NCBI GenBank assembly: GCA_902626065.1 | Contig: CACODT010000001.1 | Location: forward strand, 285,728 to 342,202 | From: an uncultured Candidatus Actinomarina sp. | GTDB lineage: Bacteria > Actinomycetota > Acidimicrobiia > Actinomarinales > Actinomarinaceae | Direction: 5' to 3' | Length of the DNA: 56,475 bases | Notes under the pieces: model-generated | The model's database searches: none | Told to the model about the DNA's origin: nothing | The model's input: only the letters and a program-made list of their open reading frames with translations | Shown: in pieces, positions 47,983-54,675 of the stretch | Position numbering within the stretch: position 1 is the first letter of the stretch | How the letters are laid out: every line of letters begins with the position of its first letter | Position numbers and translations under genes: made by a program

Positions 47983-48177
47983 ATGAATAAACAAGAAATT
48001 TATCAAGAAATACAGGAAATACTTGGCGAGCTTAATTCTCTTTCAAAGTCATTATCAACCTCAAGAGAACTCATTTCGGAAAATTCAAATAAAAGAGCGA
48101 GTGTAAGACTTGCAGAAATTGAAAGTGAGCTGCAGATAATAGCTGGTAGAGTATCTAAAATTAATTCAGCTTTTTGA
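47983..48177 (+). CDS. Small coiled-coil protein, hypothetical
   Basis: This 64-residue frame encodes a highly charged helical protein with heptad-like spacing (QEIQEILGELNSLSKSLSTS and RLAEIESELQIIAGRVSKI). It lies divergent from heliorhodopsin and converges on the iron ABC ATPase gene with a 12-base overlap. Amphipathic regularity supports real coding, but I do not recognise a family. Confidence 0.5.
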   Translation: MNKQEIYQEIQEILGELNSLSKSLSTSRELISENSNKRASVRLAEIESELQIIAGRVSKINSAF

Positions 48178-49191
48178 TGGAAAAGTTGTAACTTCGGTAA
48201 CGTCAATACAAACTTTGTCACCTGGTTCAAAAATCATAGATGGTAAAGATCTTGCTCTAAAGATCTCCCCATTTTGATTTTCAAAAGATATTACTTGATC
48301 ATGTCCATAAAAAATGCATTCTTTAACAATATAATCTCCCTTTGAATCAAGATTTACCTCAATGCATTCAGGCCTAATTGAGACGTCCAACTCACCCTCA
48401 TATGCAGAGTTAAATGTTCCTAATGAAGTTTTTACCCTTCCATTTGTTGAAAATCCCTTAATGATATTTGGATCTCCCACAGAATTTGCGACAGTTTGAC
48501 TGATTGGATTTAGATATATCTCCTGAGGAGTTGCGCTCTGTATAACTTTACCATTTTCCAAAACGCTCACAATATCACAAACTGATAATGCTTCTTCCTG
48601 ATCATGAGTTACTATAATTCCGGTTGTTTTAGTGGCCCTCAATAAAGAAACAACTTCTTCTCTAAGATCCCTCGCCATCTGAGCATCTAGACTTGTAAAC
48701 GGTTCATCTAAAAGTATCACTTCTGGCTTTGGAGCTAAAGCTCTTGCGAGTGCTACTCTCTGTTGCTGACCTCCAGATATATCTTGAGGAAATTTTTTTC
48801 TATATAAATTTAAATTAGTCATATCGATGACCTCATCTAATCTTCCATTTTTAATTTCTTCTTTAGATAAACCAAAAGCTATGTTCTTTTCAACTGTTAG
48901 GTGCGGAAATAGAGCATAATCTTGAAAAACCATCCCAATTTTTCTTTCTTCAGGTGGAATATTTATTTTTTCATTAAAAATTATATTATTGTGCATTTCA
49001 ATAGTTCCCTGATCTGGACTTTCAAATCCGGCTAATAATCTTAAAGCCGTAGTCTTACCAGAACCTGAAACACCCAAAATTCCAAATATTGATCCATACC
49101 AAATATCTAAATTAAAATCTGTTAAAACGTTTTCATCCCCATAGGATTTTGATAAGGATCTTGCTCTTATAATTAAATTATCGAATACCAT
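48166..49191 (-). CDS. fbpC: Ferric iron ABC transporter ATP-binding protein
   Basis: The 341-residue ATPase energises the adjacent permease. It has Walker A GVSGSGKTT, the Q-loop VFQDYALFPHLTV, signature SGGQQQRVALARAL, Walker B VILLDEPFTSLD and the H-loop TGIIVTHDQEEAL. A C-terminal TOBE-like domain follows (about residues 240-341, VSIRPECIEV). It lies one base after fbpB, and the Fe(III) assignment rests on the partner binding protein. Confidence 0.9.
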   Translation of the reverse strand: MVFDNLIIRARSLSKSYGDENVLTDFNLDIWYGSIFGILGVSGSGKTTALRLLAGFESPDQGTIEMHNNIIFNEKINIPPEERKIGMVFQDYALFPHLTVEKNIAFGLSKEEIKNGRLDEVIDMTNLNLYRKKFPQDISGGQQQRVALARALAPKPEVILLDEPFTSLDAQMARDLREEVVSLLRATKTTGIIVTHDQEEALSVCDIVSVLENGKVIQSATPQEIYLNPISQTVANSVGDPNIIKGFSTNGRVKTSLGTFNSAYEGELDVSIRPECIEVNLDSKGDYIVKECIFYGHDQVISFENQNGEIFRARSLPSMIFEPGDKVCIDVTEVTTFPSKS

Positions 49192-49192
49192 T

Positions 49193-50749
49193 TTAAATTG
49201 TTAAATTCCTTGTACTTAATATATAAGTAGGGATTGCACTTATTGCCAACAAAATAAAAGCAGAAAATGCTGCTTGTGTGAACATTGCTTCAGATGCGAA
49301 AGACCAGACATCCACTGCCATCGTGTTATATTCTGTCGGTCTTAAAAGAAGTGTTTGTGGCAGTTCTTTCATCGTTGATAAAAAAACGAGTGCACCCCCG
49401 GCAAATAAACCTCTATATATGAGAGGAAATGTAACTTTTCTGAATGTTTCTAACTTTGAACGACCAAGGCCTAAACTTGCTTCAATATAATTGGATTTTA
49501 CTTGCTCCATTGAGGCTTGACCTCCTCCAATAGCTTGTGGCAAGAAAACAATTAAATAAGAAATTACTAAAGCAAAGAAACTTTGATAAACACTTGGAAA
49601 TATCTTTATTGAAATAAATAAAATCGATACACCAACTGCTAAATGAGGTAATCCATATAGTGACAACATTATTTTTTCTAGAATGTCTCCAAATCTTGAC
49701 TTATATTGGGAGATCAATATAACAATTGGCATTGAAATAATAATTGCAAGAAGTGAAGTTACTATTGATGCAGAAAAGGAACCCAGAATACCCGGAATCG
49801 ATGAAGTAACATCGGTACCATAATAAAGACCCCTAAATAACCAAAAACTTAATACTGCTACAGGGATTATCAGACCAAGAGAGATAATGACTCCAAGGAA
49901 TGAATAAATTAATATTTTTCCATTTTTTTCAAGTTTTACTTTTTTCGGGACTCTTGGAGTGCCCGATACTTTAGCAGATCTTGAAGTTGCTGATCCTCTT
50001 TGGATAAAACTAATCAGTAAAGCTAGGACTATAAGTAAGCTTGAGTAAAAAATCACAGGATCGCCAAGAATACTAAATTCATAATATGCATAAATTGCTT
50101 TTGTAACAGTTGAGTATCTCATTAAAGATACTGCTCCAAAATCAGAAATCACATAAAGTCCAACTAACAAGCTTGAATATATAATTGGTTTTTTTAGTCT
50201 AGGAATGACAACATTTGTATAAACTTTAAATTGATTTACACCTAACGACCGAGCTGCGTCTTCCACAGTTGAGTCAAGATTTCTTAAAGCACTACTACAA
50301 ATTAATTGTACGTATGGATAAGTGAAGAGAGTTAGAACAAGCCAACTTCCTAGAAATCCCTCAATACCAGCAATTTCATTAATACCGTATCTGTTAAAAA
50401 TTTGTACAAACAAACCTTTTGGAGAAAACGCTGATATATAAGTTAGGGCACCTATATATGAAGGTATTACCAGTGGTAGTGCACATAACGTAAATAGTAT
50501 TTTTGAGCCCTTGAATTCAAATCTCACAGTAACTATTGAGATTAATAAACCAACCAAAACGCTTGTTAAAACAACCGCAAAAAAGACTGTTATTGTATTA
50601 AACATTAAATTAAAAACGTTCCAAGATTGAAAAAAACTTGATAAAGATCTAGAAAAATTTACAAATCGCCAAAGCATATAAATTATAGGTGCGATAAAAG
50701 TAAATAAAATTAATGAATTTATCGTTAATAAACTCTTGGGAATCCTCAT
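49193..50749 (-). CDS. fbpB: Ferric iron ABC transporter permease (fused two-domain)
   Basis: The 518-residue membrane protein contains two copies of the binding-protein-dependent permease domain. The ATPase-docking EAA loops are EDAARSLGVNQFKVYTNVVI (first half) and YIEASLGLGRSKLETFRKVT (second half). This duplicated form, about 12 helices, is typical of FbpB/SfuB/FutB iron permeases. A hairpin in the 111-base gap after fbpA may lower its expression relative to the binding protein. Confidence 0.9.
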   Translation of the reverse strand: MRIPKSLLTINSLILFTFIAPIIYMLWRFVNFSRSLSSFFQSWNVFNLMFNTITVFFAVVLTSVLVGLLISIVTVRFEFKGSKILFTLCALPLVIPSYIGALTYISAFSPKGLFVQIFNRYGINEIAGIEGFLGSWLVLTLFTYPYVQLICSSALRNLDSTVEDAARSLGVNQFKVYTNVVIPRLKKPIIYSSLLVGLYVISDFGAVSLMRYSTVTKAIYAYYEFSILGDPVIFYSSLLIVLALLISFIQRGSATSRSAKVSGTPRVPKKVKLEKNGKILIYSFLGVIISLGLIIPVAVLSFWLFRGLYYGTDVTSSIPGILGSFSASIVTSLLAIIISMPIVILISQYKSRFGDILEKIMLSLYGLPHLAVGVSILFISIKIFPSVYQSFFALVISYLIVFLPQAIGGGQASMEQVKSNYIEASLGLGRSKLETFRKVTFPLIYRGLFAGGALVFLSTMKELPQTLLLRPTEYNTMAVDVWSFASEAMFTQAAFSAFILLAISAIPTYILSTRNLTI

Positions 50750-50781
50750 AGGTTTAAGAATATATTTGATTTTGAGATAAC

Positions 50782-50821
50782 AAAAGAAAAATTCTGGCCA
50801 GAGAAACCCCTGGCCAGAATT
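50782..50821 (-). terminator. Hairpin terminator or attenuator between fbpA and fbpB
   Basis: A perfect 12-base-pair stem (arms 50790-50801 and 50810-50821, core CTGGCCAG) with an eight-base loop is followed on the minus strand by TTTTTCTTTT. It sits between the binding-protein gene and the permease gene, so partial termination would make more FbpA than FbpB-FbpC. Confidence 0.85.
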
Positions 50822-50860
50822 CTATTCGGTTTCGAGCTTACTAGTTAATTTAATGACTGA

Positions 50861-51976
50861 CTAGAAACCTGCTTGCGCTATCAATTCAACAGCTTTTTCC
50901 TGCCAAAGTGCTAACGCTGACCAGTTCAAATTCGATGGAGAATTCAAACTATTAATATCTGGAAGTAAAGCGTTTGGTGCTATACCGGCAACGAGAGGGA
51001 ACTCATAAACAGTATTAGTAAAATGCTCTTGAGCACTTGTTGAATGTAAATATTCAATAAATGCTAAAGCAGCTGGTTTGTTTTGACTTGTTGACAAAAC
51101 ACCTGCACCTGCTGGCATAACCATAGCGCCACAACCACCATCTAAGTACACATTCTTCATTTGAGCATTTGGCTCTTCAGCTAATACTCTTAATGTGTAG
51201 TAATGATTAATCATTCCAATGTCTAGCTCACCAGCATTTGCTGCTGCAACTTGAGGTGAGTTCTTTGGATATTCTGTATATCCAAGACCATTGATTGCTG
51301 TTAACCATTCGAGAACTTTTTCTTCACCGTCAGACTCAATCATGCATGCAATCATTGCAATAAATGATGAGTTTGTTGGTGCTAGTCCAAGTCTGTTTCT
51401 AAACTTTTCATCTGCTAAACCATAAATATCTCCTGGTAGTTCAGCATCAGTAACATCTCTTGTGTCTACAACGAGTGATCGTGACCTTCCAGATGTACCA
51501 ACCCAAAAACCATTTCTATCTACAGCCCATGAAGGAACATTGTCCAATATATCAGCAGGCAATCTATCAAATAGACCTGCTTTGGCTACTACGCCAAGAC
51601 TTACTGGATCTTGTGAAAAGAATACATCAGCTGGGCTGATTGCACCTTCAAGTTCTAATGTTCCAGCTAAAGCAGCACTCTTTGCATACCTTACTTCGAC
51701 ATCTACTCCTGAAGAAGCTTCAAAAGCTGCAATCACATCAGCGACTAAGCTCTCTTTTCTTCCACTATAAATAACAAGTGTTCCTCCAACTTCTGCCTCT
51801 GGCTCGGCGAGTGCAGCTTCAACTGCAGCATCTATAGCTGCTTGAGAAACTTCACCTGCTGGACCTGCTGGTCCTGCCTCACCTGCTGGTCCCGCTGGCC
51901 CTGCTTCACCTTCGGAAGCACATGCTGCAAAAACCATTAGCATTACAGAAATCAAAGCAATAAATTTTTTGTTCAA
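50861..51976 (-). CDS. fbpA: Iron-binding lipoprotein of the ferric ABC transporter, with collagen-like linker
   Basis: The preferred start is TTG at 51974-51976, preceded by AAAGGA six bases upstream. It gives a lipoprotein signal ending MVFAAC with Cys19 as lipid anchor. Residues 23-42 are Gly-X-Y triplets (GEA and GPA repeats), then an Ala/Glu helix, then the binding domain from GGTLVIYSGRKESLV. The segment GMINHYYTLR holds the paired tyrosines used for iron in FbpA/FutA proteins. An upstream ATG at 52019-52021 lacks a Shine-Dalgarno element. A regulator-type inverted repeat lies 27 bases upstream of the start. Confidence 0.9.
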   Translation of the reverse strand: MNKKFIALISVMLMVFAACASEGEAGPAGPAGEAGPAGPAGEVSQAAIDAAVEAALAEPEAEVGGTLVIYSGRKESLVADVIAAFEASSGVDVEVRYAKSAALAGTLELEGAISPADVFFSQDPVSLGVVAKAGLFDRLPADILDNVPSWAVDRNGFWVGTSGRSRSLVVDTRDVTDAELPGDIYGLADEKFRNRLGLAPTNSSFIAMIACMIESDGEEKVLEWLTAINGLGYTEYPKNSPQVAAANAGELDIGMINHYYTLRVLAEEPNAQMKNVYLDGGCGAMVMPAGAGVLSTSQNKPAALAFIEYLHSTSAQEHFTNTVYEFPLVAGIAPNALLPDINSLNSPSNLNWSALALWQEKAVELIAQAGF

Positions 51977-52002: not shown

Positions 52003-52020
52003 TGTTAATAGTAGTTAACA
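52003..52020. promoter_or_regulatory. Operator-like inverted repeat TGTTAA-N6-TTAACA before fbpA
   Basis: Perfect six-base arms (52003-52008 and 52015-52020) flank a six-base spacer. On the minus strand the spacer region contains TACTAT, a plausible -10 for fbpA, so binding would block it. The same 18-base pattern occurs upstream of the DtxR-family gene at 53406-53423. hemH reads away from the other side of this intergenic region. Confidence 0.75.
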
Positions 52021-52100
52021 AACCAAGTTAATAGGAATTATTTTAAAAAATTTTTTAAATTATCATTTATAAAATTAAAAGTTAAAATAATTAAATCAGT

Positions 52101-53147
52101 ATGAAAATAAAAGAAGCTGTCTTATTAGTCAATCTTGGCTCTCCTAAAGAGTTAAACAAAAAAAGTGTAAGAAAATACTTAAATGTTTTCTTATCTGATG
52201 ATTATGTAGTTGATATTCCTAAGGTTTTACAGCAATTATTACTCAAACTTTTTATTTTACCTTTTAGACCTAAACAAACTCTGCATGCATATGAACAAAT
52301 TTGGACAGATGAAGGGTCGCCCTTAATCATTTCAACTTTTAAAATAAAAGAAAAACTCATCAAAAAAACTGGATGGCATGTTGAAATAGCCATGAGATAT
52401 GAATCTCCAAGTATTGAGAATGCTTTAAGAAATTTAAAAGCAAATGGCTTTAATAAAATATATGTAGTGCCTTTATATCCTCATAATGCGATGGCAACAA
52501 CAATTACTACACAGGTTGAAGTTGAAAAACTGGCAAACGAAATAATACCTAAAGCAGAACTATTCTTTATTAAACCGTTTTACAACAATGATAAGTACAT
52601 AAAAGCCGTATCTAATAAAGTTAGAGAATATATTACTACTGAGAAATTTGATAAATTAGTTTTTAGTTATCATGGGATCCCAAAAAGACAAGCAAAGAAA
52701 ACTGATGAAACCGGTTCACATTGTTTTTCAAACAAAGAGTGTTGTGAAGTTGATGAACTTGGATCGGCAGACTGTTACAAAGCTCATACAGTTCAGGCTT
52801 CAATCAAAATTGCGAAAGAATTAGGGTTAAAATCTACTGATTGGGAGATCGCTTATCAATCTAGAATAGGACCTGGTTGGCTTACTCCATTTACAGATAA
52901 GAGGTTGGAGGTATTACCTGATGAAGGTGCAAAATCAATTGGCGTACTTTGCCCATCTTTTATATCTGATTGTTTAGAAACCTTAGAAGAGATAGATATT
53001 CGAGGAAGAAAAACCTTTATTGATGCTGGCGGTGAAAAAATGACTTATATTCCTTGTCTAAATGAATCAAATGATACGATTGATCTTTTGGTTTCAATTG
53101 TTGAAGATGCAAAGAAATTTAGAATTAAAGCTTTGAAAACTGCTTAA
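52101..53147 (+). CDS. hemH: Ferrochelatase
   Basis: Ferrochelatase inserts Fe(II) into the porphyrin at the end of heme synthesis. The 348 residues contain LLVNLGSPKE, FSYHGIPKRQ with catalytic His191, and GVLCPSFISDCLETLEEI. A cysteine-rich stretch follows the His motif (Cys208, 214, 215, 225 in SHCFSNKECCEVDEL and beyond), which could hold an iron-sulfur cluster. The overall sequence looks more like the form in Gram-negative lineages than actinobacterial coproporphyrin ferrochelatase, so substrate and origin deserve care. Confidence 0.93.
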   Translation: MKIKEAVLLVNLGSPKELNKKSVRKYLNVFLSDDYVVDIPKVLQQLLLKLFILPFRPKQTLHAYEQIWTDEGSPLIISTFKIKEKLIKKTGWHVEIAMRYESPSIENALRNLKANGFNKIYVVPLYPHNAMATTITTQVEVEKLANEIIPKAELFFIKPFYNNDKYIKAVSNKVREYITTEKFDKLVFSYHGIPKRQAKKTDETGSHCFSNKECCEVDELGSADCYKAHTVQASIKIAKELGLKSTDWEIAYQSRIGPGWLTPFTDKRLEVLPDEGAKSIGVLCPSFISDCLETLEEIDIRGRKTFIDAGGEKMTYIPCLNESNDTIDLLVSIVEDAKKFRIKALKTA

Positions 53148-53232
53148 TACGAGCTGCTCTAGGAAGTAGTTTTCCACCATTCCGCACAACCCACATAAAA
53201 GCAAATAACAAGTAAGCAAATGGACAAGCCAT
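53125..53232 (-). CDS. Possible 35-residue membrane mini-protein overlapping the hemH 3' end
   Basis: The minus strand encodes MACPFAYLLFAFMWVVRNGG and a basic tail ending QFSKL. The first 16 residues are hydrophobic and the rest positively charged, like a small single-span protein. It overlaps hemH by 23 bases and would be convergent to it. There is no clear ribosome binding site, so support is only compositional. Confidence 0.28.
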   Translation of the reverse strand: MACPFAYLLFAFMWVVRNGGKLLPRAARIKQFSKL

Positions 53233-53245
53233 ACATTTATTTTAC

Positions 53246-53383
53246 ATGAATATTAAGATAAAAGAAATGGATAACAATATTAAAGAGATTGATAATAACC
53301 CAAAAATAATTACAAAGTTCGAGCCACTTATCTGGTTAGCTTTTATCGCTCTTACTGCAGTTGTTGGTTGTCCAGTGTTCTAG
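53246..53383 (+). CDS. Possible 45-residue single-span membrane protein between hemH and the DtxR-like gene
   Basis: The frame encodes a charged N-terminus (MNIKIKEMDNNIKEIDNNPK) and a C-terminal hydrophobic segment PLIWLAFIALTAVVGCPVF, the pattern of a tail-anchored mini-protein. It ends 49 bases before the regulator gene and 20 bases before its operator. No homologue is recognised. It explains most of the otherwise empty 285-base gap. Confidence 0.4.
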   Translation: MNIKIKEMDNNIKEIDNNPKIITKFEPLIWLAFIALTAVVGCPVF

Positions 53384-53403
53384 AAAACATTCAAAATCGC
53401 CAA

Positions 53404-53425
53404 AATGTTAATACCTGTTAACATT
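53404..53425. promoter_or_regulatory. Operator-like inverted repeat before the DtxR-family gene
   Basis: Eight-base arms AATGTTAA (53404-53411) and TTAACATT (53418-53425) flank the spacer TACCTG, centred 18 bases before the ATG. The core TGTTAA-N6-TTAACA is identical to the repeat before fbpA. The right arm overlaps candidate -10 hexamers (TAACAT or CATTAT) for the gene, so autorepression is likely. Confidence 0.78.
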
Positions 53426-53432
53426 ATTACAT

Positions 53433-54146
53433 ATGCAGATAGATGAACTAAATACTCCAAATTCAAATAATGATGAAAGTATTCTAACCCATGAAGAGGT
53501 AGAGAAATTTCCAAAATCTTTTTATACCCATGCAGAAGCAATATTTCACCTTCAAGAGGTTGGTATAGATATAAAACAAACAAGGGTTGCGGAATGGTTA
53601 GGAGTAAGTCGTGCAAATGTTTCACAAGTTGTTGGAAGAATGCAAAACAGTGGTTTAATCAAGTTGAATGATAATCTTCAACTTACTGAAACTGGCTTAT
53701 GTTTGGCAAAGTGTATATCTAGAAGGCACAGAATCACAGAAAGATTTTTATCCGAAGTTTTGAATCTACCATGGGATCAAGTCTATAAAGAAACAAGTCG
53801 ATGGGAAGACGTTTTAAGTCCAGTAACTGAAAAAGCAATGTTAAAGATGTTAGGAAATCCAAAAACAGGACCCTTTGGAAATCCAATCCCTCACTCTAGA
53901 TATCAAGAAAAAAATATGAAAAATTTACTTAATGTTGAGACGAATAAAACATACTCTATTGAAAAAATTACCGAGGAACTAAAAAGAGATCCATCTATGA
54001 TAGATTTTTTACAATCACATGAGATGCTTCCAGGATCAAAACTAAACGTAGCCGATGCTGGTGATTTTTCGATAACTATAAGTACAAATGGCAATGAATT
54101 TTTTGGTGTCGATAAATTTATTGCCAAAAGAGTCTTCGTTAGCTGA
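53433..54146 (+). CDS. DtxR/MntR-family metal-dependent transcriptional regulator
   Basis: The 237 residues show the winged helix (VAEWLGVSRANVSQVVGRMQ near residues 52-71), the metal-binding/dimerisation domain (RRHRITERFLSEVLNLPWDQ, KTGPFGNPIPHSR) and a C-terminal FeoA/SH3-like domain (LPGSKLNVADAGDFSI). Ancillary-site His99 and Glu103 are kept, but the DtxR primary-site positions Met10/Cys102/Glu105/His106 read Thr32/Ser122/Glu125/Asp126, and DtxR His98 is Tyr118. Metal specificity is therefore uncertain. Context (iron importer, ferrochelatase, shared operator) suggests control of iron uptake. Confidence 0.9.
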   Translation: MQIDELNTPNSNNDESILTHEEVEKFPKSFYTHAEAIFHLQEVGIDIKQTRVAEWLGVSRANVSQVVGRMQNSGLIKLNDNLQLTETGLCLAKCISRRHRITERFLSEVLNLPWDQVYKETSRWEDVLSPVTEKAMLKMLGNPKTGPFGNPIPHSRYQEKNMKNLLNVETNKTYSIEKITEELKRDPSMIDFLQSHEMLPGSKLNVADAGDFSITISTNGNEFFGVDKFIAKRVFVS

Positions 54147-54186: not shown

Positions 54187-54675
54187 ATGGAAGATTTCTT
54201 ACAACAAATTCCAAGAAATTTATTTCTTTATATAGGTGTAGGAATTTTTGTTTTAATTATAATTTATCGATTTTTCCCTCAAGTATTTTTAAAAATTCAT
54301 AAACCATTTTTTTTCACTATAGGAATTTTGTCACTATCTCTGGGGTATGTAGGTATCTTAATTCCTGGTCTTCCAACCACCGTATTTATTCTTATTGCTG
54401 CATGGGCATTTTCAAAATGCTCAGATAAATTTACAAATTGGCTTGAAAATCATAGACTTTTTGGTCCTATGATTCTTAATTGGAAAACCTATAGGGGATT
54501 ATCAAGACGAGCAAAAAAACTTGCTATTCTTATGATCGTTCCAACATTTGCACTGACAATTTTTTTAGTATTTTCTCTAGTTGGGGATTTAATTTTTGGT
54601 TCATTTGGGGTTGCACTTTGTGTGTGGTTAGCAACTAGGCCTGAGCCTCCTTTAGAAAAAGCAAACTCTAGTTAG
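54187..54675 (+). CDS. YbaN/DUF454-family inner membrane protein
   Basis: The 162 residues have three to four hydrophobic segments and the family core [36 protein letters not shown] and [11 protein letters not shown]. In E. coli ybaN is a neighbour of priC/apt; no biochemical function is established. The gene converges on tdk with an eight-base overlap. Confidence 0.87.

Follow-up and report, generated by a model that had tools for sequence, protein, structure and literature searches.

Conserved candidate operators and a DtxR/IdeR-family regulator with replaced metal ligands at the ferric-uptake locus of Candidatus Actinomarina

Regulators of the DtxR family, which includes IdeR, are classically metal-activated (PMC10317159). 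IdeR dimers recognize TTAGG-N4-CCTAA, one half-site binding one dimer (PMC8464063, PMC10317159), and according to a review, such half-sites remain to be investigated in other IdeR-using species (PMC10317159). In IdeR, base 2 of CCTAA is contacted by Thr40 and bases 1 and 2 by Gln43, and the protein is said to read DNA mostly indirectly (PMC8464063). Another described member of the family is the Mn2+ regulator SloR of Streptococcus mutans, which binds 6-6-6 elements (SRE) of the form AATTAA-N6-TTAATT and TTTTAAGCATACTTAACA, and for which the spacer matters as well (PMC12096823).

The Actinomarina regulator described here resembles the IdeR of Saccharopolyspora erythraea (PMC8464063) in being a three-domain protein (E about 1e-30; fold TM 0.77-0.84) with putative iron-uptake targets and a site made of two 5-base repeats with a TAA core and a 4-bp spacer. 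It differs in having RT in place of the CC of CCTAA, in the lack of the 19-bp double site, in the recognition helix (SRANVSQ versus SGPTVSQ in IdeR), and in the replacement of metal positions 10, 98, 102, 106, and 175. With SloR it shares the 6-6-6 layout, that is, inverted hexamers with a TTAA core and a 6-bp spacer at a metal-transport promoter; SloR sites also overlap metal-transporter promoters, and the spacer that matters for SloR is conserved within each operator class of Actinomarina. The Actinomarina protein has 24-25% identity to SloR in a structural alignment and has not kept the canonical ligands; SloR, for its part, responds to Mn2+ and has several tandem sites. Since SloR binds a similar 6-6-6 site, the Actinomarina motif is a variant and not a new kind of operator.

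The fbpABC-regulator locus and its candidate operators

Candidatus Actinomarina is an uncultivated and very streamlined lineage of tiny cells, abundant in the surface ocean. A survey of Actinomarinales genomes already names, in the passages concerned, a cluster of an Fe3+ ABC transporter, a ferrochelatase, and an iron-dependent repressor; those of its passages on the cluster that a keyword search retrieves mention neither operators nor metal-site changes (PMC7771536). The window analyzed here, a stretch of 56,475 nucleotides, carries the locus with the following features:

48166-49191, minus strand, fbpC, ABC ATPase
49193-50749, minus strand, fbpB, ABC permease
50861-51976, minus strand, fbpA, ferric-iron-binding lipoprotein with a likely TTG start at 51976; its top hits in the PDB are ferric-binding proteins (E 1e-62)
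52003-52020, no strand assigned, candidate operator 1, in the fbpA promoter
52027-52031, minus strand, conserved TTAAC at a fixed offset upstream of operator 1 (TTAAC-N6-TGTTAA)
52101-53147, plus strand, hemH, ferrochelatase, an optional member of the locus
53246-53383, plus strand, conserved mini-protein of 45 amino acids with one hydrophobic segment and a GCPxF end
53406-53423, no strand assigned, candidate operator 2, in the regulator promoter, with the ATG 9 nt downstream
53433-54146, plus strand, DtxR/IdeR-family regulator of 237 amino acids with replaced metal ligands (wHTH, Fe_dep_repr_C, and FeoA/SH3-like domains)
54187-54675, plus strand, DUF454 membrane protein, located 40 bp downstream of the regulator and syntenic in the genus

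The fbpABC operon (48166-51976, minus strand) is divergent from hemH, with operator 1 between them, and codes for a ferric uptake system of the FbpABC type, with a ferric-binding solute-binding protein, a permease, and an ATPase. FbpA also has a short collagen-like GPAGPAGEAGPAGPAG stretch after the lipoprotein signal.

The first-pass annotation had described an identical inverted repeat, TGTTAA-N6-TTAACA, before fbpA and before the regulator gene. Perfect copies are indeed found at 52003-52020 (TGTTAATAGTAGTTAACA) and 53406-53423 (TGTTAATACCTGTTAACA), although identity is limited to the 12 specified bases, the 6-base spacers being unlike (TAGTAG and TACCTG, respectively). Dinucleotide shuffles gave an expectation of 0.02 perfect 18-mer matches per window, and 0 of 100 shuffled windows had two. 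Across the whole genome (1.02 Mb; an assembly of 1,023,914 bases in 20 contigs, 89% complete), the only two perfect matches are those at the fbpA/regulator locus, versus 0 for the reversed control pattern. There are seven matches with one mismatch, and the three that we read (one in L107, two in L108) all fall inside unrelated coding ORFs, identified by inspection as queG-like, malQ-like, and a short-chain dehydrogenase.

Extending the scan of the 18-base pattern to relatives revealed a non-random and strongly conserved distribution. The regulator was found in 33 of 42 genomes of the family, including all eight of the most complete ones. As first noted, operator-like sites precede both genes: the site is perfect in all 32 aligned fbpA promoters and lies directly upstream of the regulator in each of the 30 loci fetched, 25 times in perfect form and 5 times differing in the first base alone. 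Within the sites, the information content amounts to 1.7-1.8 bits per base, versus 0.4-1.0 in their flanks. Perfect sites number 67 in the 42 genomes, compared to 14 matches to the reversed pattern; 59 of the 67 are at the fbpA/regulator locus, and three of the remaining eight look functional. Two spacer classes are apparent, since fbpA-side sites are mostly TGTTAA(C/G)TA(C/G)TATTAACA and regulator-side sites mostly TGTTAAT(A/T)(A/C)CTGTTAACA. The genome is AT-rich and matches with two mismatches occur at the chance rate, as would be seen if the two sites were chance palindromes; however, the expectation for perfect matches in the window and, above all, the retention of the site at both promoters across the genus rule out such an origin, to which we give practically no credence. 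This genus-wide conservation at both promoters argues for a small autoregulated regulon made up of the regulator and the ferric transporter fbpABC.

The position of the sites is consistent with repression, as had been proposed, because in every one of the 33 sequences aligned the regulator-side site is followed by the first ATG at a distance of 7-13 nt; the site would therefore overlap the transcription start if the regulator gene has its own promoter. The more specific proposal that the sites cover the likely -10 boxes of fbpA and the regulator gene was not borne out, as a consensus sigma-70 promoter scan detected no promoter at operator 1 or operator 2. Immediately after the regulator-side site, all 33 sequences have a T; the resulting TGTTAACAT may be an extended -10. 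On the other side, the fbpA TTG start (about 51976, minus strand) is 26 nt downstream of operator 1, and the TTAAC at 52027-52031, present at the same offset in 30 of the 32 fbpA promoters, could be either a -35-like box or an extra half-site. A search of the region against Rfam matched no riboswitch or other known RNA.

The cluster had also been read as a self-contained iron-uptake/heme regulon with one or two mini-proteins. Its core, fbpABC plus the regulator, holds, but the ferrochelatase is optional. hemH is present in 22 of 42 genomes, always at the fbpA/regulator locus, and was not found in the other 20 (some of them incomplete), which include three of the eight most complete. Both operators persist without it (for example, in G005, G012, G028, G035, and G037), and in G012 they are just 135 bp apart with nothing between. 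hemH was thus rejected as part of the regulon core. Only in two genomes, G002 and G011, where the gene is inverted, does it have an operator of its own (AGTTAA-N6-TTAACA, approximately 24 bp ahead of the matched coding region), so that at best the gene is an accessory member. Of the possible mini-proteins, only that at 53246-53383 is conserved; it shows 42-91% identity and is located just before the regulator in nearly all genomes of the genus, G012 being a genome without it, and it had no match in Pfam or NCBIfam. Wherever the genus loci examined reach far enough, the regulator is followed by the DUF454 protein, which is possibly cotranscribed with it.

Operator sequence in Actinomarina and related Acidimicrobiia

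The motif differs in sequence from the published DtxR/IdeR consensus (TTAGGTTAG), as the first-pass annotation pointed out, but it is not alien to the family, since the 5-4-5 geometry of the IdeR half-site is kept. Read as a half-site, it becomes TTAAY-N4-RTTAA, with the IdeR spacing and the outer TTA/TAA; it is neither the IdeR operator TTAGGTTAGSCTAACCTAA nor the half-site TTAGG-N4-CCTAA. The latter has no match in the source genome and is not enriched in the genus (30 matches versus 44 for the control), and it was rejected as the Actinomarina operator.

The picture is different in relatives, where the corresponding sequence is GTTAGG-N4-CCTAAC, compared to GTTAA(C/T)-N4-(A/G)TTAAC in Actinomarina, the inner GG/CC alone being changed. 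We found four perfect matches to the former in 12 Acidimicrobiia genomes, all at fbpA or FTR1: in two cases the site separates fbpA from the regulator, in one it separates FTR1 from the regulator, and in the last it precedes FTR1, at about 1 kb from the regulator. The choice of these genomes was guided by such sites already seen in some of them or by membership in the same families, so the count is an illustration and not an estimate of frequency. The four matches, located at iron-uptake promoters in four Acidimicrobiia relatives, bear on the question raised in the review about half-sites in other species. Among the first 20 relatives fetched, the half-site was found near the regulator in four (up to one mismatch) and, in perfect form, ahead of an fbpA-like gene in a fifth; the Actinomarina form was detected near the regulator in none of the 20 (up to one mismatch).

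The Acidimicrobiia orthologues have about 38-44% identity to the Actinomarina regulator and the same operator geometry, and several are also divergent from an iron-uptake gene (fbpA or FTR1). They differ, apart from the operator, in having Glu43 instead of Gln43 and in keeping Glu10, His79, Glu83, His98, Glu105, and Glu175. Position 40 is Asn in all 30 Actinomarina orthologues and Ser or Ala in relatives; Asn40 may be tied to the changed operator bases. Together with the half-sites of these relatives, the rewritten half-site, fixed across the genus, offers a natural series for the change of DNA specificity in the DtxR family.

Sequence directly shows where the sites lie and how well they are conserved, what the neighboring genes are, how the operators vary between lineages, and which residues have changed; from this we infer that the two sites are very likely operators of the adjacent regulator. 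One dimer would probably bind each TTAAY-N4-RTTAA site in the geometry of the IdeR half-site and block the transcription of fbpABC and of the regulator gene itself, so that ferric uptake in Candidatus Actinomarina would be run by a small autoregulated regulon. Such a site would derive from an older GTTAGG-N4-CCTAAC operator, the form still found at fbpA or FTR1 in related Acidimicrobiia. The regulator is assigned as the binder mainly because of the linkage of the sites to its gene. Two FUR-family genes in the genome could take part in iron control, and one of them adjoins a gene resembling a metal-ABC solute-binding protein. However, ownership of the sites by one of these proteins, or by some other transcription factor, appears improbable: the sites go with the DtxR-family gene and its promoter, and in relatives the corresponding promoters have a half-site of the IdeR type.

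The regulator and its metal-binding positions

The regulator belongs to the DtxR/IdeR family, with Pfam domains PF01325, PF02742, and PF04023 above their cutoffs and PDB sequence and fold matches to IdeR, and it is the sole Fe_dep_repr_C/DtxR-family protein found in the genome. Its score against the DtxR equivalog model NF053665 is 125.5 bits with a cutoff of 290, which makes it a family member and not an equivalog, and its Pfam metal/dimerization domain scores 74 bits versus 99-107 in relatives. A confident AlphaFold model (pLDDT 87) matches DNA-bound, metal-activated IdeR in a fold comparison, although models of this kind favor known states. dN/dS values of 0.05-0.09 point to purifying selection; the closer pairs carry this argument, because the larger dS values are near saturation.

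We take the primary metal site of DtxR/IdeR to consist of IdeR positions 10, 102, 105, and 106, and the ancillary site of 79, 83, 98, 172, and 175. These ligand positions are confirmed in part by the literature (PMC10317159). In Actinomarina, the primary positions are occupied by Ser/Thr/Lys (10), Ser/Lys/Ala/Thr (102), Glu (105), and Asn/Asp (106), and the ancillary ones by His (79; Arg in two orthologues), Glu (83), Tyr (98), Glu (172), and Lys (175). Hence, neither site is conserved. Side chains are replaced in all 30 orthologues at three of the four primary positions (10, 102, and 106), Glu105 alone being kept, and at two of the five ancillary ones, with His98 changed to Tyr and Gln/Glu175 to Lys; the ancillary ligands kept are His79 (28/30), Glu83, and Glu172 (both 30/30). 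All 20 relatives sampled keep Glu10, His79, Glu83, His98, Glu105, Glu172, and Glu175. Since most canonical ligands are replaced, calling the regulator "iron-responsive" is an assumption. Either a new, unrecognized metal site may have formed or metal sensing may have been lost, and we consider both about equally plausible.

The protein could still be an ordinary metal-activated repressor, a reading that we hold tentatively, with a rearranged site built from the kept His79, Glu83, Glu105, and Glu172 and new neighbors, for which His11 or His17, Tyr98, and Asn106 are candidates. The invariance of the three glutamates and the near invariance of His79, the new and invariant His at position 17, the location of the operators at a ferric transporter, and the classical mode of action of the family are consistent with it. 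However, Lys is found at position 102 in 12 orthologues and at 175 in all 30, and lysine there disfavors a cation in the pocket; in addition, His79 is Arg in two orthologues and His11 is Gln in four.

It is just as possible that the regulator acts independently of metal, with Lys175 and other changes standing in for the ions, as a constitutive or differently gated autorepressor; it would then set a low constant level of FbpABC. The genus-wide loss of ligand side chains at both sites, their retention in all 20 relatives sampled (with acidic residues at 10, 172, and 175), and the low dN/dS despite this loss point in that direction. A hyperactive DtxR mutant, E175K, known from a title cited in PMC10317159, affects a neighboring rather than the same position. 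Against metal independence, alternative ligands are possible on sequence grounds. The literature covered, largely outside subscription journals, gave no direct precedent by title for DtxR-family proteins without metal ligands and no paper on Actinomarina together with DtxR.

With some reserve, we suggest that a repressor of the DtxR/IdeR lineage changed its operator specificity (GTTAGG to GTTAAY) and lost canonical metal sensing, all under strong purifying selection. If so, the autoregulated controller of ferric uptake in one of the most streamlined ocean bacteria would be a DtxR-family protein that either acts without metal or is gated in some other way. It is the altered regulator that merits testing. 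The replaced ligands make DtxR-family control of iron uptake without metal sites a directly testable idea.

Other sites and FUR-family loci

The FUR-family loci (L186 and L187) are located one near ECF-type-transporter-like genes and the other near a gene like those of zinc/manganese-type solute-binding proteins.

G008, G010, and G025 each have a third perfect site (L102:4801-4818, L103:4825-4842, and L104:3983-4000), whose spacer resembles that of the fbpA sites, just downstream of a TATAAT and before uncharacterized membrane or small proteins, divergent from the adjoining putA. The downstream genes vary among the three genomes and the operator is constant, likely lying over the transcription start. 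Other than in G010 and G025, no site (up to one mismatch) was detected at homologues of this cluster in the loci fetched. The same 18-mer recurs in two genomes at the equivalent position (L105:3188-3205 and L106:3136-3153), downstream of an ispD-like gene and ahead of genes resembling a glucitol-type PTS, with a spacer unlike those of the iron operators.
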